Of a stretch of 64,000 bases of DNA, positions 13,999 to 41,157 are shown one piece after another. A program made the translations under genes and the position numbers. This DNA is from Sinohyriopsis cumingii (taxonomy: Eukaryota; Mollusca; Bivalvia; Unionida; Unionidae), in the NCBI GenBank assembly GCA_028554795.2, contig CM068839.1, positions 90,554,182 through 90,618,181 of the forward strand, in the 5' to 3' direction. The notes beneath the pieces are model-generated. The model was not told the origin of the DNA. It worked only from the letters and a program-made list of their open reading frames with translations, and ran no database searches. Every line of letters begins with the position of its first letter. The stretch's first letter is position 1.

Positions 13999-14243
13999 AG
14001 TGTAAATTGAAGAAAAATTGTTTGTGATTTGAAAAAACGTTTGATGTTATAGTGTTGGATAATTGTTAAAAAATGTTAGAGTTGTTGTTTAGTGTTAAGT
14101 GATTTTTGAATAAAAAATGTTGTGTTTTGAAAAAAAAATGCCTTTGTCTTTTGTTTGGCTATGAGAATGTTTGATTCATGCTCTTTGACTTCTTACTATC
14201 CCTCTCATGACACTCATTGAACGTTGCGGCTCGAAAACCGTGG
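13999..14243 (+). other. 3' region of late block with AATAAA signals
   Basis: AT-rich stretch after the protease without a gene. It holds GAATAAAAAATG near 14108, a plausible polyadenylation signal for the rightward virion gene block. This contrasts with the histone-type stem-loop ends of the three small genes that follow. Confidence 0.45.
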
Positions 14244-14334: not shown

Positions 14335-14712
14335 ATGTGCTCCAAACTAGCTAAGCTAAACGAAGCCTACGTGAATTTGCATAGGGTCAGACACAGTCTG
14401 ATACCGAAGCCAGAAGAGATAGAGAATGTGAGAATGCTAAAAGTCACTGAAGACCTGATTGAAGAGCTCTTCAGAGAAGAAGCGAACAGGGAGAAAGAAG
14501 AATGGACAGAGAAGTACAGACTTCAGAGACAGCAGCAACAGCAGCAACAGCAACAACAACAGCAGCAGCAGCAACCTGAAGCTGACAGAGGCTTTGTCGA
14601 TTGTCGTATCGACACCAAAGAGTTCTTCTTCTCTTTCCGAAGAAGCAGACCTATCGCCAGAAAGTCTATCCTCAGAGGACATCGCATTCTTAGAAACAAA
14701 AGATTGCCATAG
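14335..14712 (+). CDS. Terminal cassette ORF A: coiled-coil, poly-Gln protein
   Basis: 125 residues. The N-part is helical (SKLAKLNEAYVNLHRVRHSL), then acidic/basic heptads (TEDLIEELFREEANREKEEW), a run of 15 glutamines near residue 65 coded by mixed CAG/CAA (13 in element 2), and a Ser/Arg-rich tail (FFFSFRRSRPIARKS). ATG 14335 (MCSKLAK) is shared by both copies. The gene is followed at once by a histone-type 3' stem-loop. No domain recognised. The pattern 'helix then EELxxEE' recurs in ORFs B and C, so the three may be old paralogues. Confidence 0.65.
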   Translation: MCSKLAKLNEAYVNLHRVRHSLIPKPEEIENVRMLKVTEDLIEELFREEANREKEEWTEKYRLQRQQQQQQQQQQQQQQQPEADRGFVDCRIDTKEFFFSFRRSRPIARKSILRGHRILRNKRLP

Positions 14713-14734: not shown

Positions 14735-14777
14735 AAAACAGCCCTTTTCAGGGCTACCCAATACTCTAGAAAAGAAA
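14735..14777 (+). terminator. Histone-type 3' stem-loop after ORF A
   Basis: AGCCCTTTTCAGGGCT (14740-14755) forms a 6-bp stem with a TTTC loop, preceded by A-rich DNA and followed by ACCCA, exactly as in animal replication-dependent histone genes. TAGAAAAGAAATAA about 13 bases on resembles the purine-rich histone downstream element that pairs with U7 snRNA. Confidence 0.8.
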
Positions 14778-15070
14778 TAACCATCAATTTGCCAATGTGT
14801 GTAGGTAGAGTAGTGTGAATATAAACACTAACTCTTTTTTTAATAGTGTGAGTGTATGTGTTTGTGTATAGGATTGTGCGTTTGTAAGTGCTCACGTACG
14901 TTGGTGTGGATAGTAGATTAAGATGATGGGTTTTTTTTGGCTGTTTGAGGTGTGGGGAGAGTAGATTTGGGGTTGGATTGTATTGCTTTGCGTATGTGAA
15001 TAGTCTATTGAAGTGATTAATGAAAAATTTTTTTAGAATAGGAATGGGAAGTATAAAAAAGTGAGTGAGT
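14778..15070 (+). repeat. Spacer A, duplicated after cassette B
   Basis: No gene. The stretch CATCAATTTGCCAATGTG, then TAAACACTAACTC and a GTGTTTGTG-rich section with AGCTCACGTA, is repeated at about 15618-15760 after ORF B, showing that cassettes A and B are tandem duplicates including their spacers. Mirrored copies lie at 25000-25270 and 25880-26150 in element 2. Confidence 0.6.
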
Positions 15071-15170
15071 GTTTCTTTTAGGTCCGCGCGTTGTTTTGGT
15101 CATGATCTAGGTAAGATCAATTTTATGTTTTTAGGGGGATTTTTCCATCACGTCCGCGCTTTCACTATAA
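15071..15170 (+). promoter_or_regulatory. Cassette B double promoter motif
   Basis: Two related boxes about 60 bases apart: TTTCTTTTAGGTCCGCGCG (from 15072) and TTTTTCCATCACGTCCGCG (from 15140), the second running into TTTCACTATAAATTG with a TATA box at 15165-15171. The linker holds ATGATCTAGGTAAGATCAAT, conserved before cassette C and in element 2. Confidence 0.6.
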
Positions 15171-15221
15171 ATTGAAACTCGCTGGACAGTCTAGCTACCC
15201 TGTTCATTCGTTGACAAAACA

Positions 15222-15536
15222 ATGAATACCAGAATTGTGAAACTGCTAGAACTCCAGATGCACCTGGAATATGCCAGGCGCATACTAAATGAACTGGCCG
15301 CGGAGGCCATTGTAGAAGGAGCAAGAATGAAAGAGGAGGAGGAGGAAAGAAGAAGAAAAGAAGAGGAGGAGAGAAGAAACAAAGAAGAGGAGAGAGGAAA
15401 TTTCAGAATCCCAGAGACAGAAAATTCGGATTCTGAAGCCACATATCCCGCCTCTGCACTCCCAAGAAGAAAGGTGAAAGGAGACTGGGGAAGAAGATGC
15501 GTGTGTGGCGCCAGGCCAGGAAGGTGCCATCATTAG
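15222..15536 (+). CDS. Terminal cassette ORF B: Glu/Arg-rich coiled-coil protein
   Basis: 104 residues. Helical start LLELQMHLEYARRILNELAA, then a long EEEERRRKEEEERR charged helix, and a short conserved tail with FRIPETENSDSEA and GDWGRRCVCGARPGRCHH, whose cysteines and histidines could bind metal. The element 2 copy is 126 residues, longer only in the charged repeat. Followed by a histone-type stem-loop. Not recognised; an early regulatory role is a guess from position. Confidence 0.6.
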   Translation: MNTRIVKLLELQMHLEYARRILNELAAEAIVEGARMKEEEEERRRKEEEERRNKEEERGNFRIPETENSDSEATYPASALPRRKVKGDWGRRCVCGARPGRCHH

Positions 15537-15572
15537 ATAGGTGCATCTGGAGTTTAAAAAAAAAACACAAAA

Positions 15573-15615
15573 CCAACAGCCCTTTTCAGGGCTACCCAAT
15601 ACTCTAGAAAAGAAA
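15573..15615 (+). terminator. Histone-type 3' stem-loop after ORF B
   Basis: AGCCCTTTTCAGGGCT at 15578-15593, then ACCCA and TAGAAAAGAAATAA, identical in layout to the stem-loop after ORF A. The 6-bp stem and TTTC loop are intact. Confidence 0.8.
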
Positions 15616-15826
15616 TAACCATCAATTTGCCAATGTGTGTAGGTAGTGTGAATATAAACACTAACTCTTTTTTAATAGTGTGAGTGTATGTGTTTGTGTG
15701 TTTGTGTGTTTGTGTTTGTAACAGCTCACGTATGTTTGTGTGAATAGTAGATTATGGGTTTCTTAATTGTTTCTTAGCGTATGTGGAGAGTATAGTTTGG
15801 GTTTTATTATATGAAATGAGAAAGTA

Positions 15827-15935
15827 GGGGGATGTTCTCCTTCACGTCCGCACGTTTTAAGTGATGATCTAGGTAATGTCAATTTTATGTTTTTAGGGGG
15901 ATGTTTTCCATCACGTCCGCGCTTTCACTATAAGA
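15827..15935 (+). promoter_or_regulatory. Cassette C double promoter motif
   Basis: Two boxes: GGGGATGTTCTCCTTCACG with TCCGCACG (15827-15854) and GGGGATGTTTTCCATCACG with TCCGCGCTTTCACTATAAG (15896-15934), linked by the same ATGATCTAGGTAATGTC spacer as in cassette B. It ends about 50 bases before ATG 15985. Confidence 0.6.
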
Positions 15936-15984
15936 ACCCACCACGTTCGTCGTTTGAACCATTCTACGGAATAACAGATACAAG

Positions 15985-16566
15985 ATGGAAGTGTCGGCGT
16001 TGTTTAATGACTTAAGAAATGTTTACTTTTGAATGATGGATGGAGAATATACTATTGAAAGGATAGAAAGAGAATGGAGGTTGAGAAAAAGTCTTGACTA
16101 TGTCAATGAACTACAATTAGCGAGGAAGATGATAGAGGAAATGATAGAGGAAGAAGTTAAGAGATTGAGAGGATTGATTCAACCAGAGTATGTAAGAGTG
16201 GGGACTATAAAAGAGTCTATGGACAAGGTAAAAGGAGTGAGATGTTATTTAGAAGAGCTAGAGAAATGGTCAGAGTGGAAGTTCGTGAAAAGGGGCAGTG
16301 AACAACTAAAGAAAGCGGAAGAAAAGATGAAAAAGATAATAGAGGAAGAAGTGCAGAAAATTAAGGACAGGTGGGCAAAAGATAGAAAAGAACAAGAGAA
16401 TAGAAAGAAAAAAGAAGAATATGAGAGACTGAACAATAACTGGATAAAAATCCAACAGAAGTTCCGAGCCATGGGTCACCCGGACTGGATGCCGGAAACA
16501 GAAAAGAAGAAGAAGAAAGGAATGATGGAAAAAAAAAGAGGATGGTGGAAGAAGTTTAGGAGTTAG
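15985..16566 (+). pseudogene. Terminal cassette ORF C: long coiled-coil protein, one stop
   Basis: 193 codons beginning MEVSALFNDLRN. In element 1 a TGA at 16030-16032 replaces the TGG of element 2; after it the frame is open from MMDGEYTIERI. Nearly all of the protein is Glu/Lys-rich helix (LQLARKMIEEMIEEEVKRL; EEKMKKIIEEEVQKIKDRW), with a small motif FRAMGHPDWMPE near the end and a basic tail. The identical length in both elements suggests it was under selection until recently. It is the outermost gene and its 3' stem-loop belongs to the TIR. Confidence 0.65.
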
Positions 16567-16581
16567 AAGAAGAAGAAAAAA

Positions 16582-16630
16582 CCCAAAGGCCCTTTTCAGG
16601 GCCACCCATATTTCTCGAAAAGAGAATGAC
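16582..16630 (+). terminator. Histone-type 3' stem-loop after ORF C (best match)
   Basis: CCAAAGGCCCTTTTCAGGGC and CACCCA (16583-16608) match the animal histone consensus in stem (6 bp), loop (TTTC), 5' flank (CCAAA) and 3' flank (ACCCA). AAAAGAGA at 16618-16625, 14 bases after the stem, is a near-ideal histone downstream element, complementary to the CUCUUUU of U7 snRNA. Confidence 0.85.
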
Positions 16631-16909
16631 TTTCAATTGCCTACCCCCTTTTTTTTTAAAAAAAATTTTTTTTTCAAAAAAAATCCCATGTTCAATTCCC
16701 CTTGAGGCTAGAGTTGCCCACGATTTTTTTCCCATGTTAAATTCCCCTTGAGGCTAGGTTTGCCCACGATTTTTCCCATGTTAAATTCCCCTTGAGGCTA
16801 GGTTTGCCCACGATTTTTTCCCATGTTAAATTTCCATTGAGGCTAGGTTTGCCCAGGGGTCTCTGTAATGCTAATTTCCATTGAGGCTAGGGTGCCCCAC
16901 TTCACTACT
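16583..16909 (+). repeat. Right terminal inverted repeat of element 1
   Basis: Homologous to the TIRs of element 2: stem-loop, a poly-T/A stretch, then about five units of roughly 44 bases (CCCATGTTAAATTCCCCTTG, AGGCTAGGTTTGCCCACGAT) and the end ACTACT. Where each element 2 unit has TACGTACAA, each unit here has TAGCCTCAA. The left partner is outside the window. Confidence 0.8.
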
Positions 16910-23880: not shown

Positions 23881-24227
23881 AGTAGTAAATGGGGCCACCC
23901 GACGTACAATGGGAATTAGCATTACAGGGACCCCTGGGCCACTCTACGTACAAGGGAAATTTAACATGGCGAAAAATCGTGGGCCACTCTACGTACAAGG
24001 GGAATTGAACATGGTGAAAAATCGTGGGTCACTCTACGTACAAGGGGGAATTTAACATGGGGGAATAGAGTTTGGGTTTGTCTAGGGACAAGGGGAATTG
24101 AATATGGGATTTTTTTTTTTAATTTAAATTTAAATTTAAATTTAAATTTAAATTTAAAAAAAGGGGTAGGCAATGGAAAGGCTATCTCTTTTCAAGAAAT
24201 ATGCGTGTCCCTGAAAAGGGCCTTTGG
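23881..24227. repeat. Left terminal inverted repeat of element 2
   Basis: Matches the inverse of 41589-41942 with few differences. From outside: AGTAGTAAATGGGGCCACCC, four to five units with CTACGTACAAGGG and AACATGGNGAAAAATCGTGGG, a (AAATTT)n tract at 24121-24158, and the histone-type stem-loop. Confidence 0.92.
24192..24227 (-). terminator. Histone-type 3' stem-loop after ORF C' (in TIR)
   Basis: Read on -: CCAAAGGCCCTTTTCAGGGA with CACGCA (24207-24222 for the stem). One stem pair is lost (C to A) and ACCCA has become ACGCA; TTGAAAAGAGATAG follows as downstream element. It is in sense with ORF C'. Confidence 0.7.
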
Positions 24228-24234
24228 CTTTCTT

Positions 24235-24816
24235 CTATTTCCTCCATTTACCCATCCAGCCCCTAATCTTTCCCCAAATTCCTTTTTTCTTCTTCTTTTC
24301 ATTTTCCGGTATCCAGTCCGGGTGTCCCATGGCTCGGAACTTCTGTTGGATTTTTATCCAGTTATTGTTCAGTCTCTCATATTCTTCTTTTTTCTTTCTA
24401 TTCTCTTGTTCTTTTCTATCTTTTGCCCACCTGTCCTTAATTTTCTGCACTTCTTCCTCTATTATCTTTTTCATCTTTTCTTCCGCTTTCTTTAGTTGTT
24501 CAATGCCCCTTTTCACGAACTTCCACTCTGACCATTTCTCTAGCTCTTCTAAATAGCATCTCACTGCTTTTACCTTGTCCATAGACTCTTTTATAGTCCC
24601 TACTCTTACATACTCTGGTTGAATCAATCCTCTCAATCTCTTAACTTCTTCCTCTATCATCTCCTCTATCATCTTCCTCGCTAATTGTAGTTCATTGACA
24701 TAATCAAGACTTTTTCTCAACCTCCATTCTCTTTCTATCCTTTCAATAGTATACTCTCCATCCATCATCCAAAAGTAAACATTTCTTAAGTCATTAAACA
24801 ACGCCGACACTTCCAT
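24235..24816 (-). CDS. Terminal cassette ORF C': long coiled-coil protein
   Basis: 193 residues, intact version of ORF C of element 1, starting MEVSALFNDLRNVYFWMMDG at ATG 24816. The protein is almost entirely charged helix, with the FRAMGHPDWIPE motif near residue 165 and a basic tail ending GKWRK. No domain recognised. Its promoter has the double CACGTCCGCG box and its end is the TIR stem-loop, so mRNA end formation depends on the TIR. Confidence 0.7.
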   Translation of the reverse strand: MEVSALFNDLRNVYFWMMDGEYTIERIEREWRLRKSLDYVNELQLARKMIEEMIEEEVKRLRGLIQPEYVRVGTIKESMDKVKAVRCYLEELEKWSEWKFVKRGIEQLKKAEEKMKKIIEEEVQKIKDRWAKDRKEQENRKKKEEYERLNNNWIKIQQKFRAMGHPDWIPENEKKKKKGIWGKIRGWMGKWRK

Positions 24817-24867
24817 CTTGTATCTTATTCCGTAGAATGGTTTGAACGACGAATACTGTGGGTTCTT

Positions 24868-24973
24868 ATACGAAAAGCGCGGACGTGAAGGAAAACATCC
24901 CCCTAAAAACATAAAATTGATCTTACCTAGATCGTGACCAAACAACGCGCGGACGTGAAGGAAAACATCCCCT
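24868..24973 (-). promoter_or_regulatory. Cassette C' double promoter motif
   Basis: Two GCGCGGACGTGAAGGAAAAC-type boxes (from 24877 and 24946 in + coordinates) linked by AAAATTGATCTTACCTAGAT. Mirror of the cassette C promoter in element 1. Confidence 0.6.
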
Positions 24974-25283
24974 ACTTTCTCATTTCATATAATAAAACCA
25001 AAACTATACTCTTCATATACGCTAATAAACAATTAACAAACCCATAATCTACTATTTACACAAACTTACGTGAGCAGTTACAAACACAAACACAAACACA
25101 CAAAATAAACAATAAAGAAACCCATGATCTACTATTTACACCAACCTACGTTAACAGTTACAAACACAAACACAAACACACAAACACATACACTCTCACT
25201 ATTAATAAAGAGTTAGTGTTTATATTCACACTACTCTACATACACACATTGGCAAATCGATCGTTATTTCTTTTCTAGAGTAT

Positions 25284-25304
25284 TGGGTAGCCCTGAAAAG
25301 GGCT
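25284..25304 (-). terminator. Histone-type 3' stem-loop after ORF B'
   Basis: Read on -: AGCCCTTTTCAGGGCT then ACCCA, perfect 6-bp stem and TTTC loop, followed by TAGAAAAGAAATAA. Confidence 0.8.
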
Positions 25305-25331
25305 GTTTTTTGGAACTTCATGGACACCTGG

Positions 25332-25712
25332 TTAATGGTGGCACCTTCCAGGCCTGGCGCCGCATACACATCTTGTCCCCCAGTTACTTTTTACCTTTTT
25401 TGGGGAGAGAGCAGAGGGAGGATATGTGGCTTCAGAATCCCAATTTTCGGTTTCTGGGATTCTGAAATTTTTTCTTCTCTCCTTTTCCTCTTCCTCCTCT
25501 TCTTTGTTTCTTCTCTCCTCCTTTTTGTATCTTCTTTCTTCTTCTTTTTCTTCTTTATATCTTCTCTCCTCCTCTTCTTTGTTTCTTCTTTCCTCCTCCA
25601 CTCTTATCCTTCCCTCCTCCACAATGGGTTCCGCGGCCAGTTCATTTAATATGCGCCTGGCATATTCCAGATGCACATGAAGTTCCAACAGTTTCGTCAG
25701 TCTCGTGTTCAT
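25332..25712 (-). CDS. Terminal cassette ORF B': Glu/Arg-rich coiled-coil protein
   Basis: 126-residue version of ORF B: LLELHVHLEYARRILNELAA, an expanded EERRNKEEEERRYKEEKEEE tract, FRIPETENWDSEA and the GTRCVCGARPGRCHH tail. The conserved ends and the length-variable charged centre suggest the ends matter and the helix is a spacer. It is flanked by its own promoter and stem-loop. Confidence 0.62.
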   Translation of the reverse strand: MNTRLTKLLELHVHLEYARRILNELAAEPIVEEGRIRVEEERRNKEEEERRYKEEKEEERRYKKEERRNKEEEEEEKERRKNFRIPETENWDSEATYPPSALSPKKVKSNWGTRCVCGARPGRCHH

Positions 25713-25762
25713 TTTTGGTGTTGATCAATCAACAAGGGTAGTTGGACTGCCGAACGAGTTTC

Positions 25763-25871
25763 AATTTATAGTGAAAGCGCGGACGTGAAGGAAAACATCC
25801 CCCTAAAAACATAAAATTGATCTTACCTACATCATGACCAAAAACAACAACGCGCGGACCTAAAAGAAACA
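25763..25871 (-). promoter_or_regulatory. Cassette B' double promoter motif
   Basis: CAATTTATAGTGAAAGCGCG then GACGTGAAGGAAAACATCC, and a second GCGCGGACCTAAAAGAAAC box about 60 bases upstream. TATAAATTG on - is the TATA box. Confidence 0.6.
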
Positions 25872-26165
25872 CTCACTCACTTTTTATGCTACCCATCACT
25901 ATTTTAAATTTTTTTATAAATCACTTCAATAGACTATCCACATACGCAAAGCAATCCAATCTAACCCCAAATATACACCTCAAACACCAAAAAAACATTA
26001 TTTTAATCTACTATTCACACCAACTTACGTTAGCACTTACAAACACAAACACACAAACACACAAACACATACCCTCACATTTTTTAAGAAAGAGTTAGTG
26101 TTTATATTCACACTACTCTACCTACACATATTGGCAAATCGATTGTTATTTCTTTTCTAGAGTAT

Positions 26166-26186
26166 TGGGTAGCCCTGAAAAGGGTT
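26166..26186 (-). terminator. Histone-type 3' stem-loop after ORF A'
   Basis: Read on -: AACCCTTTTCAGGGCT then ACCCA. One stem pair is lost by G to A; the rest equals the copy in element 1. Confidence 0.72.
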
Positions 26187-26214
26187 GTTTTTTGTTTGCT
26201 ATGGCAATCTTTTT

Positions 26215-26574
26215 TTAGTTTCTAAGAATGCGATGTCCTCTGAGGATAGACTTTCTGGCGATAGGTCTGCTTCTTCGGAAAGAGAAGAAGAACTCTTTGG
26301 TGTCGATACGACACTCGACAAAGCCTCTGTCAGCTTCAGGTTGCTGCTGCTGCTGTTGTTGTTGCTGCTGTTGCTGCTGTCTCTGAAGTCTGTACTTCTC
26401 TGTCCATTCTTCTTTTTCCCTGTTCATTTCTTCTCCAAAGAGCTCTTCTATCAAGTCTTCAGTGATTTTTAACATTCTCACATTCTCTATTTCTTCTGGC
26501 TTCGGTATCAGACTGTGTCTGACCCTATGCAAATTCACGTAGGCTTCGTTGAGCTTAGCTAGTTTGGAGCACAT
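26215..26574 (-). CDS. Terminal cassette ORF A': coiled-coil, poly-Gln protein
   Basis: 119 residues from ATG 26574 (MCSKLAKLNEAYVNLHR). Same layout as ORF A, with 13 instead of 15 glutamines and the tail shortened by a few residues. The mixed CAG/CAA coding would slow slippage. Differences from element 1 are few and mostly conservative. Confidence 0.65.
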   Translation of the reverse strand: MCSKLAKLNEAYVNLHRVRHSLIPKPEEIENVRMLKITEDLIEELFGEEMNREKEEWTEKYRLQRQQQQQQQQQQQQQPEADRGFVECRIDTKEFFFSFRRSRPIARKSILRGHRILRN

Positions 26575-26915
26575 CTTCTTAGGAGGATGAGTCGACAATG
26601 GATGGTTAGACTGGAAACAACCCCGGTTCTTAAAGTCAAAGCGCGGACGTGAAGGAAAACATCCCCACACGGTTTTCGAGCCGCAACGTTCAGTGAGTGT
26701 CATGAGAGGGATAGTAAAAAAATGAAAGAACATCAATCCAACATTCTTATAGCTAAATAAACCACAAAGGCATTTTTTTTTTCAAAACACAACATTTTTT
26801 ATTCAAAAATCACTTAACACTAAACAACAACTCTAACATTTTTAACAATAATCCAACATTATAACATCAAACAATTTTTTTTCAAATCACCAACATTTTT
26901 TTCTCAATTAACAAT
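26575..26915 (-). other. Cassette A' promoter and 3' end of virion block
   Basis: The GCGCGGACGTGAAGGAAAAC box at 26640-26667 is the promoter of ORF A'. Upstream of it (left-to-right 26780-26915) is AT-rich DNA after the protease stop, with TTTTTATTC (AATAAAAA on -) near 26798 as likely polyadenylation signal. No gene seen. Confidence 0.5.
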
Positions 26916-27476
26916 CTACTTTAAACAGGGCTGACAACGTTGTGAATGAAATTGTGATTTCCACTGTTGGAAGTCATTAGGCCATTGATGGACACTACGT
27001 TTCCTAGCTTGAGACAAAAGATAAGCATAATGGTCACAAAACCATCGATCTACTTTCACATCGTTTCTAGAAGAATGACGAGGATCAAAATGAGTCACTA
27101 AATGTTCTAAAGAATAGCCCAGGCTGCCATGGTGCAGAAAATACACACAGTACTGTCCACACACCAAGGAATCTGTGCCTTGTAATTTCACGTTATTGAA
27201 TCGGGTGGTCTGAGCATTTCTTCTCATAAAGTCGATGATATCGTCTTCCAAAGGGGGCAATCCGTACGAATCGAAATATTCCACATATCCTTCTTGAGGA
27301 AAGTAGACGGCTACCCAGTGGGTTCCTGGGAGATGACTGTCGTCCGTGTTGATCACGTAAGCTTGATGGTCTTTAGGTTTGCGATGAGGGAGTTCATCTT
27401 TAGCACAGACGACAGGATTCCAAGAAGCCGTATACGAACTGTGGTTCAAAAGGTAATAAAGTTCCCAGGTATCCAT
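26916..27476 (-). CDS. Adenain-like cysteine protease
   Basis: Intact 186-residue maturation protease. Triad: His in PGTHWVAVYF, Asp in VEYFDSYGLPP, Cys in LVCGQYCVYFLHH. MDTWELYYLLNHSSYTASW at the start and CQPCLK at the end are shared with element 1. Adenains cleave after small Gly-containing sites in core and pVI-type proteins; matching GG/GxG sites are present in the neighbouring virion proteins. Length is close to that of adenoviral proteases. Confidence 0.93.
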   Translation of the reverse strand: MDTWELYYLLNHSSYTASWNPVVCAKDELPHRKPKDHQAYVINTDDSHLPGTHWVAVYFPQEGYVEYFDSYGLPPLEDDIIDFMRRNAQTTRFNNVKLQGTDSLVCGQYCVYFLHHGSLGYSLEHLVTHFDPRHSSRNDVKVDRWFCDHYAYLLSQARKRSVHQWPNDFQQWKSQFHSQRCQPCLK

Positions 27477-27503
27477 TGATTTGTGTGTGTGTTTTCTTCT
27501 TCT

Positions 27504-27989
27504 TCACAGGTAATAATAAGTCGTCAATTCGATCCTGACTTTTTGCTTGAAAATGTCTGACGAATAAACGGTTATTCGTTCTGTTTCCTCACTCTGATTC
27601 AGGAGAGCTTCGATACGATGGATCTCTTGAGTGGTTAATGGTGGACAAGAATGTTCACGCAAGTCTTTATACCACTGGTGCAACACGTCTTTGTCCGAGA
27701 TGAGACTCCGAGCTTCGTCCAGATACTCGTTCAATTTTTCTTCTTGACTTAACATCAGGCGTTTATCGTGTTGAATTTGACTGGGATGATCGTTTTGACA
27801 TCCATAGCAATTTTTCTTGATCAATTCCGTCATTTTTTCGACTAAGTGTTCGGGAAAACAGGAGGCTAAATGGGCTTCTTGTTCTGGCCATCTCGACTTC
27901 ATCATGATCACTTCTTCTTTTTCCACGGTCTCCTCACATTTCATGTCCAAAGTTTCTCCACTAGGTAAAGAGGGACAACAGTCTTCCAT
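27504..27989 (-). CDS. Small conserved Cys/His protein next to protease
   Basis: 161 residues, complete version of the element 1 gene at 12951. It starts MEDCCPSLPSGETLDMKCEE, then WPEQEAHLASCF, the NCYGCQNDHPSQIQHDK cluster and SCPPLTTQEIHRIEALL. Five bases separate its ATG from the MCP stop. Function unknown; conserved between Polintons at this position. Confidence 0.65.
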   Translation of the reverse strand: MEDCCPSLPSGETLDMKCEETVEKEEVIMMKSRWPEQEAHLASCFPEHLVEKMTELIKKNCYGCQNDHPSQIQHDKRLMLSQEEKLNEYLDEARSLISDKDVLHQWYKDLREHSCPPLTTQEIHRIEALLNQSEETERITVYSSDIFKQKVRIELTTYYYL

Positions 27990-27994
27990 GGTTT

Positions 27995-29308
27995 CTAGTA
28001 ATCTAGGATGACTTCTCTCAAACTGTTGATTTCTATGGTATTATCGAATTCTGCATACAGGATGACGTTCACCGTTTCATCAGGGTCTCGTTTTGCAAAC
28101 TGAATTTCCACACGAATTTGGCCGGATTTTATAGGGTGGAAATGTCCCTCGTCGCTGCCTTGGTCTGGAGTGAAATCAAAAGCCCACAAAGCGTAGCCTC
28201 CTGCATAATCCTAGTACGTAATACCGTGACTGGTATTGGTTCCTAACTGTCCGGTGGCTTCGTACAAGGACAAGTACGATCTCAAGTAATTCTTCTTGGT
28301 AAAGTCAGGTTCGAAAGGTCGGGTACACAAGGTTTTGCCATCGCGACTGACTTCGATTTTGGACACGCCAAAGTGTTGAAAGTAGAAAGGATTTTTTTCG
28401 GCAGCTCCGTTGAAGGCTGTATTCTCGACGATACCAACGATCAAACGTTTGGGTAACTGTCCTTGGAACAGATGATCTTCGATCATGGATCGCTGTCCCT
28501 TGGGAATGGTGAAGGTTTTCACTTCCACGCGTCGTATGGGATACTTGGCGGTCGTTCTGCTCAACGTCTGATTGATGTCGTTTCCCACTTTAGGTAAAAC
28601 TTCCACACGGCGTACGTAGAGTCTGGCTTCTAGGATTTTGGTTTTGTAACCGTCACTATCAGCCATCAAATGGAAAGCGGCACTGCTACGATTCAGTCTC
28701 AGACGGACATCCACCCCGTTCAGCAAATACTTTTCTTGCAACCACATGTCCAAATGCAAACGATCCATCAGTTCTAAACTTGTGTTGACTCCCGTGATTC
28801 TCTTTCTTCGTTCTACAAATCCGTCATTGTTGTCTTTCTTTTCATCAGTTTCCAAATTTTCAAACTTGGTAGGTTCGTCAGCTTCCCATAGCACACAATC
28901 ATTGAGATGAGTGTTCTTGGCATCTATTCCGTACGTCAAGAGATTTTCCAGGTAGGCACGATAAGGGTAAGTATCCATGCTGCTACTGACCAGTTTGTTA
29001 TTCAAGTACAAGTCCACTCCACTGAACAAGGAATGCATGAAATTGTTGACGGGAGCTACTGCTTCATCGTCTATAGGACCTCCAGTCTTATCTAGAATTT
29101 TGACTTTCAGGTACAAGTAACTGCTATTCAGATCGATGTAATCTTCGGGCTGTCCTTTGATTTCAAACTCGATGGGAGCGGAATCAGCCAATGAGGAGAC
29201 GGGATGAAATTCCACCCATTGGGATTCTTGCATGGTCATCATGGTGGGGGGCATGGCAAACAGATCCAGTTCAATCTTGGAACAAGCGCAAGACTCTCGG
29301 TGCATCAT
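27995..29308 (-). pseudogene. Major capsid protein (double jelly-roll hexon type), one stop
   Basis: 437 codons from ATG 29308: a Cys-containing start (SCACSKIELDLFAMPPTMM), EDYIDLNSSYLY, RLHLDMWLQEKYLLNGV, RRVEVLPKVGNDI and the C-terminal YLSLYEATGQLGTNT. A TAG at 28211-28213 replaces GAG of element 1, about 72 codons before the natural end. As in element 1, the lost part is the tail of the second jelly roll. Acidic loop differences between the copies (around residues 135-160) suggest a variable surface loop. Confidence 0.88.
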
Positions 29309-29322
29309 TTTTTTGTTCTTTC

Positions 29323-29748
29323 TCAATAATCGAAAACGTCTAAGTCTCGAACGGTTCTTCTTTTCTTGGCCTTTCTCGCTTTAGAAGTGTGAAGTCTGGT
29401 GAAAGGGTGTTTTCTTCGTCGCCTCTTTCTGCCTTGTCCTTGCTGAATGCCTGACTCGGTAGCGTGCAGGGCATTTATAGGTGTTTCTCGGTGACCAAAA
29501 ATGTCTTTGCAAGTTTGTAGCAAGACATTTTTGCCTGCCCTCATGAAGGCTTCTTTAGGGTTTTGTTTGTCGATGATGACATTTTGGAGAAATTCTTTGC
29601 CTTGTGTCAGTGCCGCATCTTTCAAGGCGTGCAATCCGCGTGTCACCATCGGTTTCAACACCGGGGCCACCGAACGAAAGGCCGATTTTAACATATCTCC
29701 TAAACCGTGTCCTCGCTGTCGAGCAACCCCTCGGTACACTGGATACAT
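29323..29748 (-). CDS. pVI-like minor capsid protein
   Basis: 141 residues, intact. MYPVYRGVARQRGHGLGDML contains a likely adenain cleavage site (GHGLGD), then an amphipathic helix, KNVLLQTCKDIFG and a very basic tail ending RDLDVFDY. It resembles pVI by position and layout; a similar MxxYRxxYGDGL start occurs in element 3 (42887), which supports an old common origin. Confidence 0.68.
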   Translation of the reverse strand: MYPVYRGVARQRGHGLGDMLKSAFRSVAPVLKPMVTRGLHALKDAALTQGKEFLQNVIIDKQNPKEAFMRAGKNVLLQTCKDIFGHRETPINALHATESGIQQGQGRKRRRRKHPFTRLHTSKARKAKKRRTVRDLDVFDY

Positions 29749-29751
29749 GAC

Positions 29752-30666
29752 TTACGAGTCGTGAGAGAACCGTTTTCGAAAATGGAGTTTCACCGTGACT
29801 TTTCCTTTGGTGAATGGAATATTTTGTCCCAGATCTCCTTTTATAGCAATGTTGACCGTGTCCAAATATGACTTGCTGACAGGCAAATAGTGAGGATGGA
29901 CTAATTCGCGGTGAACGTGGTAAGTGTTTCCACCTTCCTGGTCACTGGTCGTGGTACTATCCACTTTGAAAGGAATGACACGCAGTAACGGTACGGAGGT
30001 GTGTCCCACCACGTTGTACTCCACCACATCGGAGTACACAAACATCAAATTCAGTCCTTGGTTCAGTTCTACAGGGAATCGAAAAAACTTGTAAAATTCC
30101 ATATTGCTGTTGATCTTTGGTTTAAAATTTGGAGCCATTTTTGTGTCTCCACCTAAAATATCAAACAAGTCACGATTAAAACTGATGGACATCGTTTGGG
30201 TATCCGGAAATTTCATCAGTAAGCGACGAGCCACTTTATGGTACTCCAGGGTGACACTTTTATTTATTCTGTTCAGGGCTTTGCCAAAGGCTAACTCGAA
30301 CCTGGAAGCAATGGTGTCCACCAAATGTTGGCCACTAAAATAAAACCCTGCCGGAATTTTCAAGGTATAGATATTGAAGGGTGAATTGTTGGATGGTTTT
30401 GTGTCCCCTGCAAACCCGATGTCATTCATTGCTTCTTGTAATTCTTGGTTCAGGATTTCGACCTCAAAAGTGTTTTGTTTTTCGATGATGTTTTGGATTT
30501 GTGTAGGGTGAATCATTTCTACCAAAGCCACTTCCCAATGGGCTTCGTGATCTAAGGGGATGGCCTGAGGTAATTTGGCCGTGTAACAGCACAACGTGTT
30601 GTGGGGAAACACCTCCATGGAACTGTCACTGGGTAAGGTTAAGTAAAATTGGTTTTGGTGACTCAT
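29752..30666 (-). CDS. Penton (minor capsid) protein
   Basis: 304 residues, open throughout. NQFYLTLPSDSSMEVFPHN and WEVALVEMIHPTQIQNI at the start, LMFVYSDVVEYNVVGHTSV and HVHRELVHPHYLP near the end. It is about 16 residues shorter than the element 1 copy; the difference falls in the variable middle. Its ATG overlaps the stop of the upstream membrane protein by four bases (ATGA). Confidence 0.83.
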   Translation of the reverse strand: MSHQNQFYLTLPSDSSMEVFPHNTLCCYTAKLPQAIPLDHEAHWEVALVEMIHPTQIQNIIEKQNTFEVEILNQELQEAMNDIGFAGDTKPSNNSPFNIYTLKIPAGFYFSGQHLVDTIASRFELAFGKALNRINKSVTLEYHKVARRLLMKFPDTQTMSISFNRDLFDILGGDTKMAPNFKPKINSNMEFYKFFRFPVELNQGLNLMFVYSDVVEYNVVGHTSVPLLRVIPFKVDSTTTSDQEGGNTYHVHRELVHPHYLPVSKSYLDTVNIAIKGDLGQNIPFTKGKVTVKLHFRKRFSHDS

Positions 30667-31079
30667 AATTCCAGAGTTCTGTGGCTGTCCGAGGGGTTAC
30701 TGGACGTCAGAGGCGTGTCTCCGTCTAAAATGGGGTTCTGATTGTGGTTGAAGTGGTGACTGGCACTGGCACTGGACACAAGGTTCCCGGGGTTCAAGTT
30801 CGAGGAGAATTTCAGGGAGGGATTAGGAAGCAGGTAACCGATGCAACTGCTCAATAAAATGGTCCACAATTGTTTGTCTCCTTGTTGCAAACTCAAATTG
30901 GCAATGGCTGCCCCGATGACACAATACACCACGAAGATTTGGCAGAAAAAGACGATTTGCGTTTTAGGCACACGTTCTCCACACCACACCCACAAGGGTT
31001 GTTTTTGTAAATCTTGCACAGAAGAACTAGGTGAAGAAGGAGTGGTCGACGCATCTGCGTCTGCTGTGTGAAAGGGCAT
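30663..31079 (-). CDS. Two-segment membrane protein of Polintons
   Basis: About 138 residues from ATG 31079. WVWCGERVPKTQIVFFCQIF begins the first membrane segment; TILLSSCIGYLLPNPSL is the second. The tail is Ser/Asn-rich. Highly similar to element 1. Role unknown; a virion membrane or entry-related function could be imagined but is not shown. Confidence 0.7.
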   Translation of the reverse strand: MPFHTADADASTTPSSPSSSVQDLQKQPLWVWCGERVPKTQIVFFCQIFVVYCVIGAAIANLSLQQGDKQLWTILLSSCIGYLLPNPSLKFSSNLNPGNLVSSASASHHFNHNQNPILDGDTPLTSSNPSDSHRTLEL

Positions 31080-31084
31080 GATGG

Positions 31085-32195
31085 TCACTTCTTTTTATAG
31101 TCGATGACTTGCGAAGCGTCGATCCAAGAAACAAAACTGGGCGCATATCCTTTCCAACGTACTTTGACTTTTTTGACACGTCGTTTGCCCACTTTACGGG
31201 TTCTGCGTTCGAGAATGCTTTCGATGTCGTACACGTCGTCTTCTTTTTTGGTGACACGTTGTAACTCGGGCAAATAAAACGTTCCTTTGAGCACTTCTCC
31301 GTTCATGTCTTCCAATTTATAGACGGCAGGATGACGGCCATGCACTCGTCCAGTGACACGAAACAATTCGGTCGTTCAGTTAGGTAAGTAACCTTTGTCG
31401 AAAGTGCGTTTGGTTTTGCCAATGCGCACCCAATCTCCTACGGCCAACATTCCACTTTTCTCGGGGACAGCCCTCGTCGGGGACGTACCAAACAGACGCT
31501 CAAACACCAGCACTTCGTTGTCGGGAGTCACGTCTTGCGGGGCACGTCCGATGCTTCGATGGTAAGATTGGTTGTACGCTTGCACCAGGTGTGGTAAGAT
31601 GTCGATGTACTTCAGAGTGTGGTGATGCGTAAAATATTTCCACATGCGTTCTTTCAAAGTGCGTTGAAAACGTTCCACGATGCTGGCTTTGGTTTCGGGA
31701 TTCTCGGTGGTAAAAAAATGAATGTCACGTTTCTTTAATTCTTTTTGGAAAGCTTGGTTCAGAAATTCCCTGCCTTTTGTCCGTTTGCCATCGAAGAGGG
31801 TGACGACCGCTTTGTTTCAACACCCGTTGCAGGGCTCGCACTAACTCGCTGCTCGATTTAGAAGTCAAGGGTACGACCCAGGCAAATTTGGAAAAGACGT
31901 CGATGACACAAAACAAATATTTGTAGCCACGATTGTAGCTGGCCAAATGAGAGACATCGGCTAAATCGGCTTGCCATTGATGATCGATGCCTTCCACTCG
32001 GGTGCGACTTCTGGCAAACTTGCGTCGAATGGGTTTGTGCAAAGTGTAGGTAGCTTGTTCTTGTAACCATCGTTGCACTTGAGGTAAACGGAGACTTTTC
32101 AGTCGAGTTTTGGCAGCACGATACAATTTTTGAACTCCTGCGTAACCTGCAGGATGGGAGGGATCGTAGTAAATGCTGGCTAAGACTTTTTCCAT
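31085..32195 (-). pseudogene. Retroviral-type integrase with chromodomain, several breaks
   Basis: MEKVLASIYYDPSHPAGYAG start, core D in WQADLADV, a frameshift at the second D (TDK then RQGISEP, near 31780) and another before VERFQRTLKERM, so the frame resumes at 31678. A TGA at 31376-31378 replaces the tryptophan of element 1 (LPNW). The chromodomain part (KVRWKGYAPSFVSWI) is intact. The region lost in element 1 (YNQSYHRSIGRAPQDVTP) is present here, so the two copies broke independently. Confidence 0.9.
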
Positions 32196-32216
32196 TTTTT
32201 TGTGTTGGTTGGTGTG

Positions 32217-32840
32217 TTAATAAGACACCCACTCTTGGAGGATGTTACTCTTTTTCTCTTGGGGTACTTTCTTGGATTGCAATGCTTTGCGTGTGCGGCC
32301 GGCAATAGGTGTCGAAGAGGAGGATGTCTGAGCGGGGGATATCGGTTCTTGTTTCACTTCTGTCTTCACTTTCTTTTTCTCTTGTGATGAAGAAGGGGTG
32401 GCCAACATCTTTTTAATCCATCCAATTCTGGAGGTAGGTGGTGTTGTTAACTTGCGTACCTTTTCTGGTGGAGTTTGAAACCCTTCTTCTTCTTCTCCTT
32501 TTTCTGTCTTGGTCACGGTTAGTGGTGGTACTGGTACTGGTACTGGTGATGGTGCTGGACTTTTCATCAAGGTCTTAAAATCTTTCAAAGTGGGTAGAGC
32601 TGTTTCGTCTAAAGCTTTCTGGTGAAAGAGTTGCAGTCGTTGCAAAAGTTGACCGTACTTTTGCGATTTTCCTGTGTCGGACAAATCTTGGCGATCCATC
32701 AAGGACTGCAATTCGTGTTGTAACTGGGACATCTCGCTCAAATTGGGATTGGGAGGTAAATGCGGGGTGCGTTGTTCTTGCCACCGATGGTATTCCATCC
32801 ATCGTTTGTAAGGCACTAAAGCTAGTTTTCGTCCTTCCAT
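32217..32840 (-). CDS. Virion-associated protein of unknown function
   Basis: 207 residues, intact version of the element 1 pseudogene. EGRKLALVPYKRWMEYHRW at the start, Gln/Leu-rich helices, a Pro/Val repeat (SPAPSPVPVPVPPL), an acidic patch, a Lys-rich part (EKKKVKTEVKQEP) and a conserved ILQEWVSY end. The ALVPYKRW motif is shared by Polinton proteins next to the integrase. An SUMO-like site pattern (VKxE) occurs twice, which may be chance. Confidence 0.65.
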   Translation of the reverse strand: MEGRKLALVPYKRWMEYHRWQEQRTPHLPPNPNLSEMSQLQHELQSLMDRQDLSDTGKSQKYGQLLQRLQLFHQKALDETALPTLKDFKTLMKSPAPSPVPVPVPPLTVTKTEKGEEEEGFQTPPEKVRKLTTPPTSRIGWIKKMLATPSSSQEKKKVKTEVKQEPISPAQTSSSSTPIAGRTRKALQSKKVPQEKKSNILQEWVSY

Positions 32841-32889
32841 GGGGTTGTCAGGGGTCGATTCTGAGATCTTGGGACTTCCGAGGGCCTTT

Positions 32890-33278
32890 TTATCTTGCTC
32901 CCACCAGTCCTCCCAACATGGTTCCCAAGACTCCTTTCAGTATGGGGCCTAACAAGAGAGGCAAAAATGCCTCCACGTTGGACCAACATCTTCTTTTTTT
33001 GACGAATGGGAATTTTCTTTTGAACCATTTGGCGAAGAACGTGACGATGTTTGCCTAAGCATTGTTTCTGGTGTTTGGACAAAGGGATCGTGCCTTTCAA
33101 AAACGTTGAAACAACATTCGCACACGGTATCGATGACCTCTTTGGAGGCTGTTTGAATGAGTTTTTTTCGTAGGGGCGGAGAAGCTTTGGACAGGACAGA
33201 TAACATGTCCCCATGTTTGGCTAAACGTGGTGGCAGTCCTTTCCTTTTCTTTCCTTGGGGTTTTCTGGAGGGTGACAT
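32890..33278 (-). pseudogene. pX/mu-like small virion protein, frameshifted
   Basis: From ATG 33278 (MSPSRKPQGKKRKGLPPRL) the frame reads through KEVIDTVCECCFNVFERHD and then leaves the ancestral frame at a five-T run, as in element 1. The KHQKQCLGKHRHVLRQMV and MLVQRGG parts are in the next frame, and a further one-base insertion after RGG (FASLV) spoils the hydrophobic tail that element 1 keeps (LPLFLGPILKG). Confidence 0.6.
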
Positions 33279-33337
33279 CTTTGAGTCTTCAGGAGCACCA
33301 AAAAAACACTGATACCCTACTTGGTCACAGGCCTTTT

Positions 33338-34285
33338 TTATACTGGAACGCGTCGCCACTGATTGTCTTTACGTCGTATCAGTTTGAGGACAGGCATGAC
33401 ACGTCGTGCAGGGGTACGCAACGGACTAAATCGAGCCAGTTCTTGCTTGGACAAATCCAATAAACTTTGTAACATGCCCGATCTTTCATGGACTTTGATT
33501 TTGGGAGAAGGTACTTTGTGAGCAGCAGCCACTGCCGCTAAATTGGAAGGTCCTGCCACTGGGGAAGTTCTTTTGGGGGTCATCAACGAAGAAGTTCTTG
33601 GTGTAATCAACGTCTCCAAGTACTCTTCAGTTCCTGGTGTCATCAACGGAGAAGTGGACAAACGTGAGGATGCCGGAGACGCGGTCACTGCCGTGGCAGA
33701 TCGTGGTTTGCGAGTGTAAGGTTGCGTCCTGGCCGAAGTGCCTCTCTTGCGACTAGTTTTCTTCTGTGGACTTTTCTTTTTCTGGGGACTTTTACTCTGT
33801 TTCTTTTTCTGGGGGCTTCTTTTCTTTTTCCGGGGTGGTAGTGTCTGGTAAGAGGAGGGTCCTGCCACTGGAGAAGTTCTCCGTGGGGACCTGGTCTTTT
33901 TCTTCTTGGGGCTTCGTTGGACTTTTGTCTTGGGGATAACTTTGGGGGCATTAGGATCCCATCTTAAGAGAGAGCGAATGATGACCCCTCCTAAAGTACC
34001 GCTCCCTCCAGGTTTCAAAATGATTTGTTTTTTGGTTTGAGTGTCGATGCGGGGATCGGCCAGTTGGACCAAAGCGACTTTGTTTCGATCGAAAAAGCGT
34101 TTGGTTTGATGAGGAATTTGAATGATTCCTTGGAGTAATTGACGTGCCGTCACCGTGAACCATCGTAAGACTTCTTTGAGACTAGCTTCTAAGACACGAG
34201 CTCGTATTTCTGGATTTTTTTCTCGACTGATGCCATACAAGGCACGAATCAATTTGACGGGAAGATGCGACTGAAGGGACGTCAT
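33338..34285 (-). CDS. Basic virion core / DNA-binding protein
   Basis: About 315 residues from ATG 34285 (MTSLQSHLPVKLIRALYGIS); the frame is open further upstream only as the shifted ATPase tail. N-part with GGSGTLGGVIIRSLLRW, then repeated SPKKKK, SPQKKKSPQKK and TSPVAGPS units, and a C-terminal LLDLSKQELARFSPL. Its stop sits in a TATA box. H1/core-like by composition; the IIRSLLRW and ELARFSPL parts are the only conserved folded-looking segments. Confidence 0.7.
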   Translation of the reverse strand: MTSLQSHLPVKLIRALYGISREKNPEIRARVLEASLKEVLRWFTVTARQLLQGIIQIPHQTKRFFDRNKVALVQLADPRIDTQTKKQIILKPGGSGTLGGVIIRSLLRWDPNAPKVIPKTKVQRSPKKKKTRSPRRTSPVAGPSSYQTLPPRKKKRSPQKKKQSKSPQKKKSPQKKTSRKRGTSARTQPYTRKPRSATAVTASPASSRLSTSPLMTPGTEEYLETLITPRTSSLMTPKRTSPVAGPSNLAAVAAAHKVPSPKIKVHERSGMLQSLLDLSKQELARFSPLRTPARRVMPVLKLIRRKDNQWRRVPV

Positions 34286-34326
34286 GTTCACACTGTGTGA
34301 GACAGACGAAAAAGGGTCTGAGGTTT

Positions 34327-35082
34327 TTATAGATTTTTTGATGGGGAGTGAAATGAAGTCGAGGACGGAGACGTGTACAGGACAGGCTCTCCGTCTTGGC
34401 ACCAGTGGTGAAACAAGTGGGTACGAAATCGCAAATCCTCGGGGGTGGTAGGTTTCAAATCGACGAGTAAATAGGCGTGTGGCGTTTGAGTGGCATCGTC
34501 GTACGCCTGAGTCAGCCAAGGCGTTCCTAACTGTTTGGCTAAGACTTGCACTTGCGATTTATCTCGAGGGCTTTTAAACAAGACCACGTAATGCGCATTG
34601 AGACTGATGGTGCGATGGGCTTTACTTTGTTGAAACAAATTTTGGGTGATGTAAACGACACTGGCATTACGGTGATGCCCTTTGCGCGTGAACCACAGTT
34701 TAATTTCTTCTTCGTCTTCTCCTAACATGTCGTCGAAAATGACCAAATGGGTTTGACGGGAGTCAGAGACGATGCCGTCGTCTTCTTTAGGAATGCCTTC
34801 CACAAACACGATGGAATCGCCTTGACTTTCTCGCAAGAGGTTGTACGCCGATTGCCACTCTTTGTAACACCACACGATCCGTTGAGGTGGCCGATCGATC
34901 AAATGATGTTTATGTTCAATCAAACGTTTGACGAATTCGGTTTTCCCTGAACCGCTAGGTCCAGCAATGAGGATGGTAAAGGGATGGCGAAGATACAAAG
35001 CCTCCCAACTGGCACGATCTAAGTGTTCGTCGATGACTTTGACAGTAGACGAAGAGGTAGCAGAGACAGCAGAGGTAGCCAT
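34327..35082 (-). CDS. Genome-packaging ATPase (A32/FtsK-HerA type)
   Basis: 251 residues, intact. MATSAVSATSSSTVKVIDEH, Walker A IAGPSGSGKTEFVKRL, Walker B HLVIFDDMLGEDEEE, then SVVYITQNLFQQSKA and the conserved C-part ending SPSKNL. The correct C-terminus here (LVDLKPTTPEDLRFRTHLFH) shows that element 1 is frameshifted. Length fits Polinton packaging ATPases. Confidence 0.92.
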   Translation of the reverse strand: MATSAVSATSSSTVKVIDEHLDRASWEALYLRHPFTILIAGPSGSGKTEFVKRLIEHKHHLIDRPPQRIVWCYKEWQSAYNLLRESQGDSIVFVEGIPKEDDGIVSDSRQTHLVIFDDMLGEDEEEIKLWFTRKGHHRNASVVYITQNLFQQSKAHRTISLNAHYVVLFKSPRDKSQVQVLAKQLGTPWLTQAYDDATQTPHAYLLVDLKPTTPEDLRFRTHLFHHWCQDGEPVLYTSPSSTSFHSPSKNL

Positions 35083-35170
35083 AGTGTGAGAAATGTCACT
35101 TGTGACACGAAAACAGACAAGACAAGAGTTTATATACTTTTATCAGAACACGTTTATTGAATGTTTTTTT

Positions 35171-35545
35171 TCAAACATGAATACGAAAGACAAAAATACA
35201 TAAAAGCCAAAGGCTTAAGTACAAGAATAAAAGGCACATGATAACCATGAACGTGGAATAAAAACAAGTGTCTGTACAACAACCACATGTTTTGGGTAAA
35301 GTTCTAACCAGTTCTATAGTAGGGGGTAAGGTCACACAAGTGTCCTCCCGAAAGGGTCTTTCAGGCCTGTCCACAACAGTCCCGTCCTGGGTGACGGGTT
35401 CTTCTGGCACCGTCACTAACACGGGTTGAAAAGTAACTTTTTTCCTTGAATAACTCTCGTGCATACTGGGCCACCTCTTGGGTCCAAGCCAAACCAATCT
35501 GGTTTCTTCTTCGTCAACGACATGGTAAGTTACTTCAATGAACAA
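35171..35545 (-). CDS. Tail-anchored membrane protein (3' frame)
   Basis: Open frame of 124 residues, equivalent to the 3' frame of 5226-5802 in element 1. It reads KVTFQPVLVTVPEEPVTQDG and ends in a membrane segment (FMVIMCLLFLYLSLWLLC). The front part of the element 1 gene is missing: a junction formed from pieces that flank the BIR genes in element 1 precedes it. No ATG exists in this frame near its start, so it is probably the broken remainder of the gene. Confidence 0.45.
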   Translation of the reverse strand: MFIEVTYHVVDEEETRLVWLGPKRWPSMHESYSRKKVTFQPVLVTVPEEPVTQDGTVVDRPERPFREDTCVTLPPTIELVRTLPKTCGCCTDTCFYSTFMVIMCLLFLYLSLWLLCIFVFRIHV

Positions 35546-35549
35546 TGAA

Positions 35550-39614: not shown

Positions 39615-39749
39615 CTTGAGTGCAAAACGTCAAATGACTCAAGTTTAAACACCATAGACTAATTTATAGTCATGGCAGACCAGCGTATATAAAAGGGTGT
39701 GTGTCTTGTCCTTTTCACTATTCATTTCACTCTCAAGCCGAGCACAACG
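39615..39749. promoter_or_regulatory. Divergent promoter between PolB and zinc-knuckle gene
   Basis: Two TATA boxes face opposite ways: TATAAAT on - (39662-39668) for PolB and TATATAAAA on + (39686-39694) for the zinc-knuckle gene at 39750. Only about 18 bases separate them, so the two genes probably share upstream factors. Confidence 0.65.
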
Positions 39750-40510: not shown

Positions 40511-40530
40511 TTTTTGGTGTAGGGGTGAGT

Positions 40531-41113: not shown

Positions 41114-41157
41114 GTTGAATCACTGTCGCATAGATTGACTGCACACAAGCGCTAGCG

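Follow-up and report, generated by a model that had tools for sequence, protein, structure and literature searches.

Histone-type 3′ stem-loop signals follow the accessory genes of a Polinton family in the bivalve Sinohyriopsis cumingii

A family of Polinton elements in the genome of the bivalve Sinohyriopsis cumingii (2.9 Gb) carries, behind its small accessory genes, the 3′ stem-loop and downstream purine-rich element of replication-dependent histone mRNAs, and this signal is a feature of the element family that matches the host's own histone genes. We analysed a stretch of 64,000 nucleotides of contig CM068839.1 (C16:90554182-90618181, hereafter the window), which holds two such elements. 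Element 1 lies on the plus strand, starts beyond the window edge and has its right end at 16909, and element 2 is complete, with terminal inverted repeats, termini of the form AGTAGT...ACTACT and a flanking 6-bp target duplication, GAGGAC (23875-23880 and 41943-41948). Eight signals follow small genes that we call a to e (Table 1); they agree in sequence, structure, orientation and spacing, are retained in genomic copies and resemble the signals of the host histone genes. The parts present are those read by the stem-loop-binding protein SLBP and the U7 small nuclear ribonucleoprotein (snRNP) in histone mRNA processing, and we infer from them SLBP/U7 use, non-polyadenylated ends and cell-cycle timing for the element mRNAs.

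Each signal has a 6-bp stem, a 4-nt loop and an A-rich 5′ flank, and all eight lie 3′ of a small open reading frame (ORF) on the same strand. In seven of them 12 to 41 nt separate the ORF stop from the signal; in an interrupted copy of gene d the distance is 267 nt. When up to three mismatches were allowed, the stem-loop pattern was found ten times in the window; eight matches are the signals, each with 0 or 1 mismatch, and the two extra ones (39422 and 59324), with 3 mismatches each, look like chance, the shuffled window yielding 0.94 matches on average and 3 at most. A strict signature of stem, loop, AC and purine tract occurs 8 times, against a mean of 0.06 and a maximum of 1 in 200 shuffles. 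The gathering score of the Rfam Histone3 model RF00032 (34) is passed by two of the eight sites, 16583 (40.8 bits) and 41589 (38.8 bits), and the other six reach 31.7, 31, 31, 28.6, 28.4 and 20.7 bits; every site has E < 1, with E ≤ 6e-4 for five sub-threshold sites and 0.45 for the weakest (26171).

A first-pass annotation, made from the letters of the window, had reported these eight stem-loops, and all of them are present and in sense with the upstream small ORF (8/8). Its identification of the histone mRNA type is borne out by the RF00032 match and by a downstream purine element at the host spacing. Some of its details need correction. The adjacent small ORFs exist, the one before 41594 being 41333-41569 (78 aa), but the listed ORF before 40495 stops 267 nt upstream. 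The 6-bp stem has one mismatched pair each at 24207 and 26171 and two G-U pairs at 40495. ACCCA, said to follow the stem, stands directly 3′ of it at five of the eight sites, with ACGCA at 24207 and 41594 and ACTCA at 40495, and the purine tract (AAAAG), placed 13-14 bases downstream, begins 14 nt past the stem in all eight. The eight signals are not independent of one another: those of a and b have a common 3′ module, and those of c and e are situated on the inner margin of the terminal repeats. In an alignment of three element ends (right end of element 1, left and right ends of element 2), stem-loop and purine element form the innermost part of the terminal repeat, so that three of the eight signals stand at its inner edge and five outside the repeats; because the outermost signal has this position in the terminal inverted repeat, both element ends carry one.

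The host histone genes lie in a repeat unit of about 8.3 kb (L152) with H4, H2B, H2A, H1 and H3 all on one strand; tandem units of about 8.27-8.29 kb are seen, for example, on C531 and C561. In the one unit scored, each of the five genes has a stem-loop that exceeds the Rfam cut-off, at 35.0-39.4 bits, with GGCCCTTTTNAGGGCC or GGTCCTTTTCAGGACC as stem. The comparison with these genes, which the first-pass annotation had proposed, gave the same core sequence and spacing. CTAGAAAAGA is found in four of the five host genes and, with the same letters, in the a and b signals, and host H2A has CCCGAAAAGG, close to the CTCGAAAAGA of the c, d and e signals. The distance from stem to purine element is 14-15 nt in all five host genes, that of H4 being read from its CTAGAAAAGA AAAAG (a nearer AAAAG stands at 3 nt), and 14 nt in the eight element signals. 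ACCCA follows many element stems and none of the five host stems, so the element signal is no plain recent copy of these host genes. The stretch after the purine element resembles that of host H2A in three of four comparisons (P 0.003, 0.014 and 0.041; the fourth 0.318), and that of gene a also resembles H4 (P 0.004), in a set of 20 uncorrected tests; this is suggestive only, and we do not adopt capture from a host histone gene. For another bivalve, Lucina pectinata, PMC6210712 reports the stem-loop in all histone mRNAs and purine-rich elements in four.

A genome-wide search with the Histone3 model scored 75 matches among 589472 first-look candidates, and all 75 exceed the cut-off and stand behind, and on the same strand as, a gene of this element family. 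Assigned by tblastn to a gene in sense just upstream of the signal, the loci divide into 29 behind e, 12 behind c, 23 behind d or a later part of d, 10 behind a further, coiled-coil gene, and L051, which has only a similar ORF upstream. An ORF of at least 31 aa, in any frame, ends within about 115 nt upstream at 72 of the 75. The coiled-coil gene is not in the window, and its reference came from L031, itself one of the 75 loci; the others are L027, L032, L046, L048, L050, L067, L070, L081 and L099. Each of these ten loci and L051 has further element genes (a, b, or two upstream genes) on the same strand ahead of the signal, and in 10 of the 11 the signal is followed by DNA resembling the terminal repeat (50/75 overall). 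In some copies the coiled-coil gene seems to occupy the terminal position instead of c, with 3′ signal and terminal repeat the same, and this position looks open to exchange. Short motifs revealed no host histone gene among the 75, although five host stem-loops in a single repeat unit exceed the cut-off; the 75 are therefore an incomplete set of matches and tell nothing about proportions.

Since the 75 loci were picked by the signal, its retention was tested in loci picked otherwise. Protein searches scored at least 150 genomic copies of gene c and at least 150 of gene e. Gene c kept the signal in 20 of 20 copies examined out of the at least 150 (16 perfect, three with one mismatch, one with two), and gene e in 50 of 51 (29/30 picked by protein, 21/21 beside d). 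For gene d the figure is 50 of 52, made up of 22/23 copies beside e (27 loci, with 24 gene starts, 23 of them with room; one weak match was dropped as an antisense palindrome) and 28/29 in the e-protein loci (29 starts among 30 loci). Among the 51 gene e copies, 50 of them distinct, the stem-loop has a diversity of 0.020 and the purine element one of 0.015; the values for third and second codon positions are 0.178 and 0.036, and that for the 3′ untranslated region (UTR) is 0.087. A diversity as low as that of the stem-loop occurs in 3.7% of all 16-nt windows. The signals of c and e lie in the terminal repeat, which allows homogenisation, so this low diversity is not a clean proof of selection. 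On one strand of C2:61616966-61834228 stand eleven gene e copies, nine successive ones and a later pair, spaced 16688-16707 bp; a gap of 66796 bp, about four units, separates the nine from the pair, and such spacing would be expected if whole elements stood head to tail in tandem.

The ratio of nonsynonymous to synonymous divergence (dN/dS) between elements 1 and 2 is 0.12 for a, 0.20 for b (repeat-rich, dS 0.63, alignment doubtful) and 0.30 for c, which indicates that these three genes are under purifying selection. The core genes of the same pair gave 0.21 for the type B DNA polymerase (PolB), 0.28 for the protease-like gene, 0.31 for the integrase, 0.39 for the penton-like gene and 0.46 for the ATPase; codons dropped as poorly aligned number 79/304 in the penton-like gene, 17/233 in the ATPase, 16/156 in the integrase and 3/177 in c. 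Hexon, penton and protease are what we take these ORFs to encode, and the Pfam scan gave no match for them. Of the genomic copies of gene d found beside their own signal, 13 of 21 are in one frame (183-195 aa) and end 21-27 nt before the signal, the remaining eight being interrupted earlier. No histone family is among the Pfam matches of genes a to d, gene e having been left out of that scan. An LxCxE motif is absent from the five window proteins a to e, and an argument for S phase by way of this motif was dropped. Structure models are helical for c, at low confidence (pLDDT, the predicted local confidence score, 65.5), and reach a pLDDT of 46.7 for e, both too weak for a fold search. P0123, a homologue of gene e, extends beyond the usual end into ...QKPFSGP...LLEN..., which may be what a translated stem-loop would give; the purine element would then be altered.

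Genes d and e diverge from a common promoter region, and in their copies TATA, CCAAT and cAMP response element (CRE) words have a fixed layout. At loci picked by the stem-loop, TATA stands at -52 in 27 of 28 copies of e (-53 in the other) and at -54 in 19 of 21 copies of d, and the same pattern found it in none of 10 coiled-coil genes. A histone-like promoter is not claimed for d and e, as the host histone genes do not have the CCAAT/CRE part in common with them. Concerning polyadenylation, both elements have a sense AATAAA (14109 and 26803) between the protease-like gene and the stem-loop genes. Within the a-b-c region of element 1 (14115-16909) there is no sense A[AT]TAAA against 4.1 expected (P=0.0155), and in that of element 2 there are 3 against 5.9 (P 0.149); for AATAAA alone the counts are 0 against 2.1 (P 0.125) and 0 against 3.0 (P 0.047), with 1 against 1.4 and 6 against 1.7, respectively, on the antisense strand as a control.

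On this evidence it is likely that the host SLBP/U7 machinery makes non-polyadenylated ends on these element mRNAs. The accessory genes a, b, c, d and e, and the coiled-coil gene, would form short units at both element ends, each closed by a working histone-type signal. Host SLBP would bind the stem-loop and host U7 snRNP would pair with the AAAAGA tract 14 nt downstream, the pre-mRNA would be cut just past the stem, and the resulting non-polyadenylated mRNA would be stabilised and translated via SLBP. The core replication and capsid genes, upstream of AATAAA in both elements, presumably receive ordinary poly(A) ends. The accessory genes would probably be on whenever SLBP is plentiful, chiefly in S phase, and such expression would suit an element that brings a DNA polymerase gene of its own and depends on DNA-copying cells. 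We lean towards the broader view that a lineage of animal DNA transposon-viruses has turned the histone mRNA pathway into an expression programme of its own. Several accessory genes unrelated to one another, located at both element ends and in part within the terminal repeats, would then yield SLBP-dependent mRNAs that lack poly(A) and are tied either to host DNA replication or to the egg and embryo, and the core genes would keep ordinary ends. Of the first-pass interpretation, which had tied the terminal genes to host DNA replication, the histone-type signal, its standing as a family feature and the host match hold, while SLBP/U7 use and timing are what we infer.

If SLBP/U7 processing takes place, S-phase coupling would follow from it, and expression in eggs or early embryos is a serious alternative. 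The signal could be used for purposes other than S phase, to supply poly(A)-independent mRNAs to eggs and early embryos or to escape poly(A)-based control. Animal eggs store histone mRNA, and the same sequence data speak for this account as for S-phase coupling, which makes it a possibility to be kept in mind, if one to which we give the smaller chance; the title of PMC12803260 names SLBP-independent control of maternal histone mRNA, which is in part an argument against the stem-loop acting there. It is improbable that a histone 3′ end was captured once and has since spread with the element unused. The likeness of the post-purine stretch to H2A (and, for gene a, to H4), the common module of the a and b copies and a repeat homogenisation that could keep the c and e signals alike would all agree with such a passenger, but stem and purine element vary little in e, and the signal is found past the stop of genes a, b, c, d, e and the coiled-coil gene, six in all, as well as in a distant element, two findings that speak against it; moreover, ORFs under purifying selection and without AATAAA would need some 3′ end. 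Hairpins are common at transposon ends, and the palindrome might instead be a device at the DNA level that serves the terminal repeat in replication, packaging or recombination and whose histone likeness is secondary. The three copies at the inner repeat edge would suit this, but the other five lie outside the terminal repeats, all eight have the same orientation to the upstream gene, histone-type single-stranded flanks and a purine element at host spacing, and in a distant relative (L010) the signal stands behind another gene, all of which makes a DNA device very improbable.

Processing by SLBP and U7 has also to face several observations that weigh against it. The copies used to measure retention are close kin, not independent ones (c 90-100%, and the 30 e copies 99-100%, identical to the query), and in the 52 gene d copies the stem-loop is no better conserved than the rest of the gene. 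Covariation comes down to a single pair changed on both sides, which 173 of 500 shuffles also reach, and was dropped as a main proof because it is too thin. A[AT]TAAA occurs within 300 nt past the signal in 35 of the 75 genomic loci, so that the poly(A) pattern is only mild support, and the three hexamers in the a-b-c region of element 2 are ATTAAA. The host histone genes do not have the CCAAT/CRE layout of d and e, such words being found only in H3 and H2A and placed elsewhere. The Rfam U7 model has no match in the host genome, nor in 14 controls; a U7 pattern search gave 28 matches against 3 for the reversed pattern, and the three of these 28 that were examined as U7 small nuclear RNA candidates were rejected, their flanks being common far past the motif, with no strong 3′ hairpin, as in a dispersed repeat. 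Outside this genome, the signal is absent in five of six relatives from other records, and those five look partial or decayed.

These six relatives of the capsid-like protein (L007, L008, L009, L010, L011 and L012) come from microbial metagenome-assembled genome (MAG) records, those of Escarpia and Bathymodiolus symbionts among them, and are probably animal contamination. A lack of stem-loops in related elements, which the first-pass annotation would have taken as a refutation, was not observed, though L010 is the only one of the six that has one. The L010 signal (RF00032 35.8 bits, purine element at 14 nt) lies at a contig end, 28 nt past a small ORF and with an integrase-like ORF nearby; by eye the small ORF resembles a C2H2 zinc finger, and it is another gene than a to e. 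Its hexon is 32% and its PolB piece 43% identical to those of the element. The habit may reach distant Polintons of other animals. In L009:6357-6659 there are four 76-nt repeats with CCAAT, GACG and TATA-like words by eye, like a repeated promoter, and L008:11734-11798 gives a weak twister-P1 ribozyme match (28.9 bits, gathering 67.2). IMG/VR yielded no relative with the capsid protein, alone or in alignment, and a search of a phage collection gave no match. The stem-loop patterns found in IMG/VR (6 + 6 loci) are treated as chance, none reaching the Rfam gathering score; the best loci, L016 and L017, have one common matched sequence (24.6 bits).

The literature searched on histone stem-loops in viruses and transposable elements holds no description for Polintons or adintoviruses, in keeping with what the first-pass annotation had stated, apart from a bare count of six histone 3′UTR stem-loops, without discussion, in the Polinton-like virus and virophage genomes of PMC12220804 (2025); the section of that article that gives the count does not state the hosts, genes, position or function. 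The term "stem-loop" has 0 occurrences in the main text of PMC11071296. There is thus a faint precedent for the sighting, and the gene-linked, repeat-borne and host-matched use is new as far as the literature searched shows.

Table 1. Features of the two Polinton elements, by position in the window
Feature	Position	Strand	Remarks
AATAAA, last sense poly(A) hexamer of element 1	14109..14114	+	upstream of stem-loop genes
Gene a, element 1	14335..14712	+	ORF, 125 aa, Q-rich, basic C-terminus; no Pfam family over cut-off
Module after gene a, element 1	14735..14780	+	RF00032 31 bits; 27 nt past stop
Gene b, element 1	15222..15536	+	ORF, 104 aa; TATA at -56
Module after gene b, element 1	15573..15618	+	RF00032 31.7 bits; 41 nt past stop
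Gene c, element 1	16033..16566	+	ORF, 177 aa, K-rich, predicted all-helical
Module after gene c, inner edge of element 1 right terminal repeat	16583..16628	+	40.8 bits; 21 nt past stop
Rest of element 1 right terminal repeat	16629..16909	.	~45-bp repeat units, ends ...ACTACT
Element 2	23881..41942	main genes on -	complete Polinton
Module after gene c, inner edge of element 2 left terminal repeat	24182..24227	-	28.4 bits; one mismatched pair
Gene c, element 2	24235..24912	-	12 nt gap to stem-loop
Module after gene b, element 2	25264..25309	-	31 bits
Gene b, element 2	25332..25712	-	27 nt gap to stem-loop
Module after gene a, element 2	26146..26191	-	20.7 bits, weakest; one mismatched pair
Gene a, element 2	26215..26733	-	28 nt gap to stem-loop
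Module after gene d	40471..40515	-	28.6 bits
Gene d	40778..41113	-	copy interrupted; acidic-aromatic N-terminus
Divergent promoter region common to d and e	41114..41332	.	219 bp; CCAAT boxes, TGACGTCA, TATA ~53 nt before each ATG
Gene e	41333..41569	+	78 aa, Arg-rich; relatives P0122, P0123
Module after gene e, inner edge of element 2 right terminal repeat	41589..41634	+	38.8 bits; 24 nt past stop

The PolB pieces of both elements match PF03175 (type B DNA polymerase), the piece of element 2 being 37488-39614. Pfam further identified an rve integrase (PF00665), a poxvirus-A32-type ATPase and two BIR-domain genes in element 1, and the integrase and ATPase of element 2 closely match these scanned copies. 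The capsid-like protein owes its label to our own assumption and had no match in the Pfam scan; its relatives are named F54H12.2-like, and among the 120 best of 937 those with species names are from bivalves (Mercenaria, Crassostrea, Saccostrea, Ostrea), with one bacterial MAG record as exception. Adintoviruses are defined in PMC11071296, in the part that treats them, by an OTU-like N-terminal domain of PolB and a chromodomain in the integrase; neither OTU nor chromodomain is among the Pfam matches of the scanned pieces, of which the integrase piece does not include the C-terminus. The two BIR (inhibitor of apoptosis) domain genes of element 1 lie within 2661-5039, and after them come three similar ORFs beginning MDTL.EN (3839-5039), the first of which has no Pfam match. 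Another Polinton-like element, seemingly split by element 2, occupies 41901-58022 and 63119-63685, and the Rfam scan of the window found no histone stem-loop in it. By eye, the ORFs at 41901 and 63119 are alike, as are 23333-23683 and 57642-58022.

If the proposed use of the histone pathway is correct, the element would be a natural reporter of SLBP/U7 control, present in high copy and with the same ends on several non-histone genes, and would show a way for a virus-like transposon to time its genes to host DNA replication; poly(A) RNA-seq would miss such genes.

Compared with known systems, the signals resemble the 3′ end of replication-dependent histone mRNAs (RF00032, read by SLBP and U7) in stem, loop, flanks, the purine element at 14 nt and a site shortly past the stop, with ACCCA or near variants 3′ of the stems, but unlike replication-dependent histone genes, genes a to d encode non-histone mobile-element proteins, as judged from the Pfam scan. 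The histone 3′UTR stem-loops of the wider Polinton-like group (n = 6) are similar cases, which the section of PMC12220804 concerned only counts. The elements themselves are like the Maverick/Polinton group, adintoviruses included, as far as PMC11071296 describes it, in having PolB, an rve integrase, a poxvirus-A32-type ATPase and F54H12.2-like relatives, and they share with Mavericks/Polintons the terminal inverted repeats and the 6-bp target duplication (seen in element 2, the left end of element 1 being outside the window). They differ from the elements described in that part of PMC11071296 in their terminal gene cassettes with histone-type 3′ ends.

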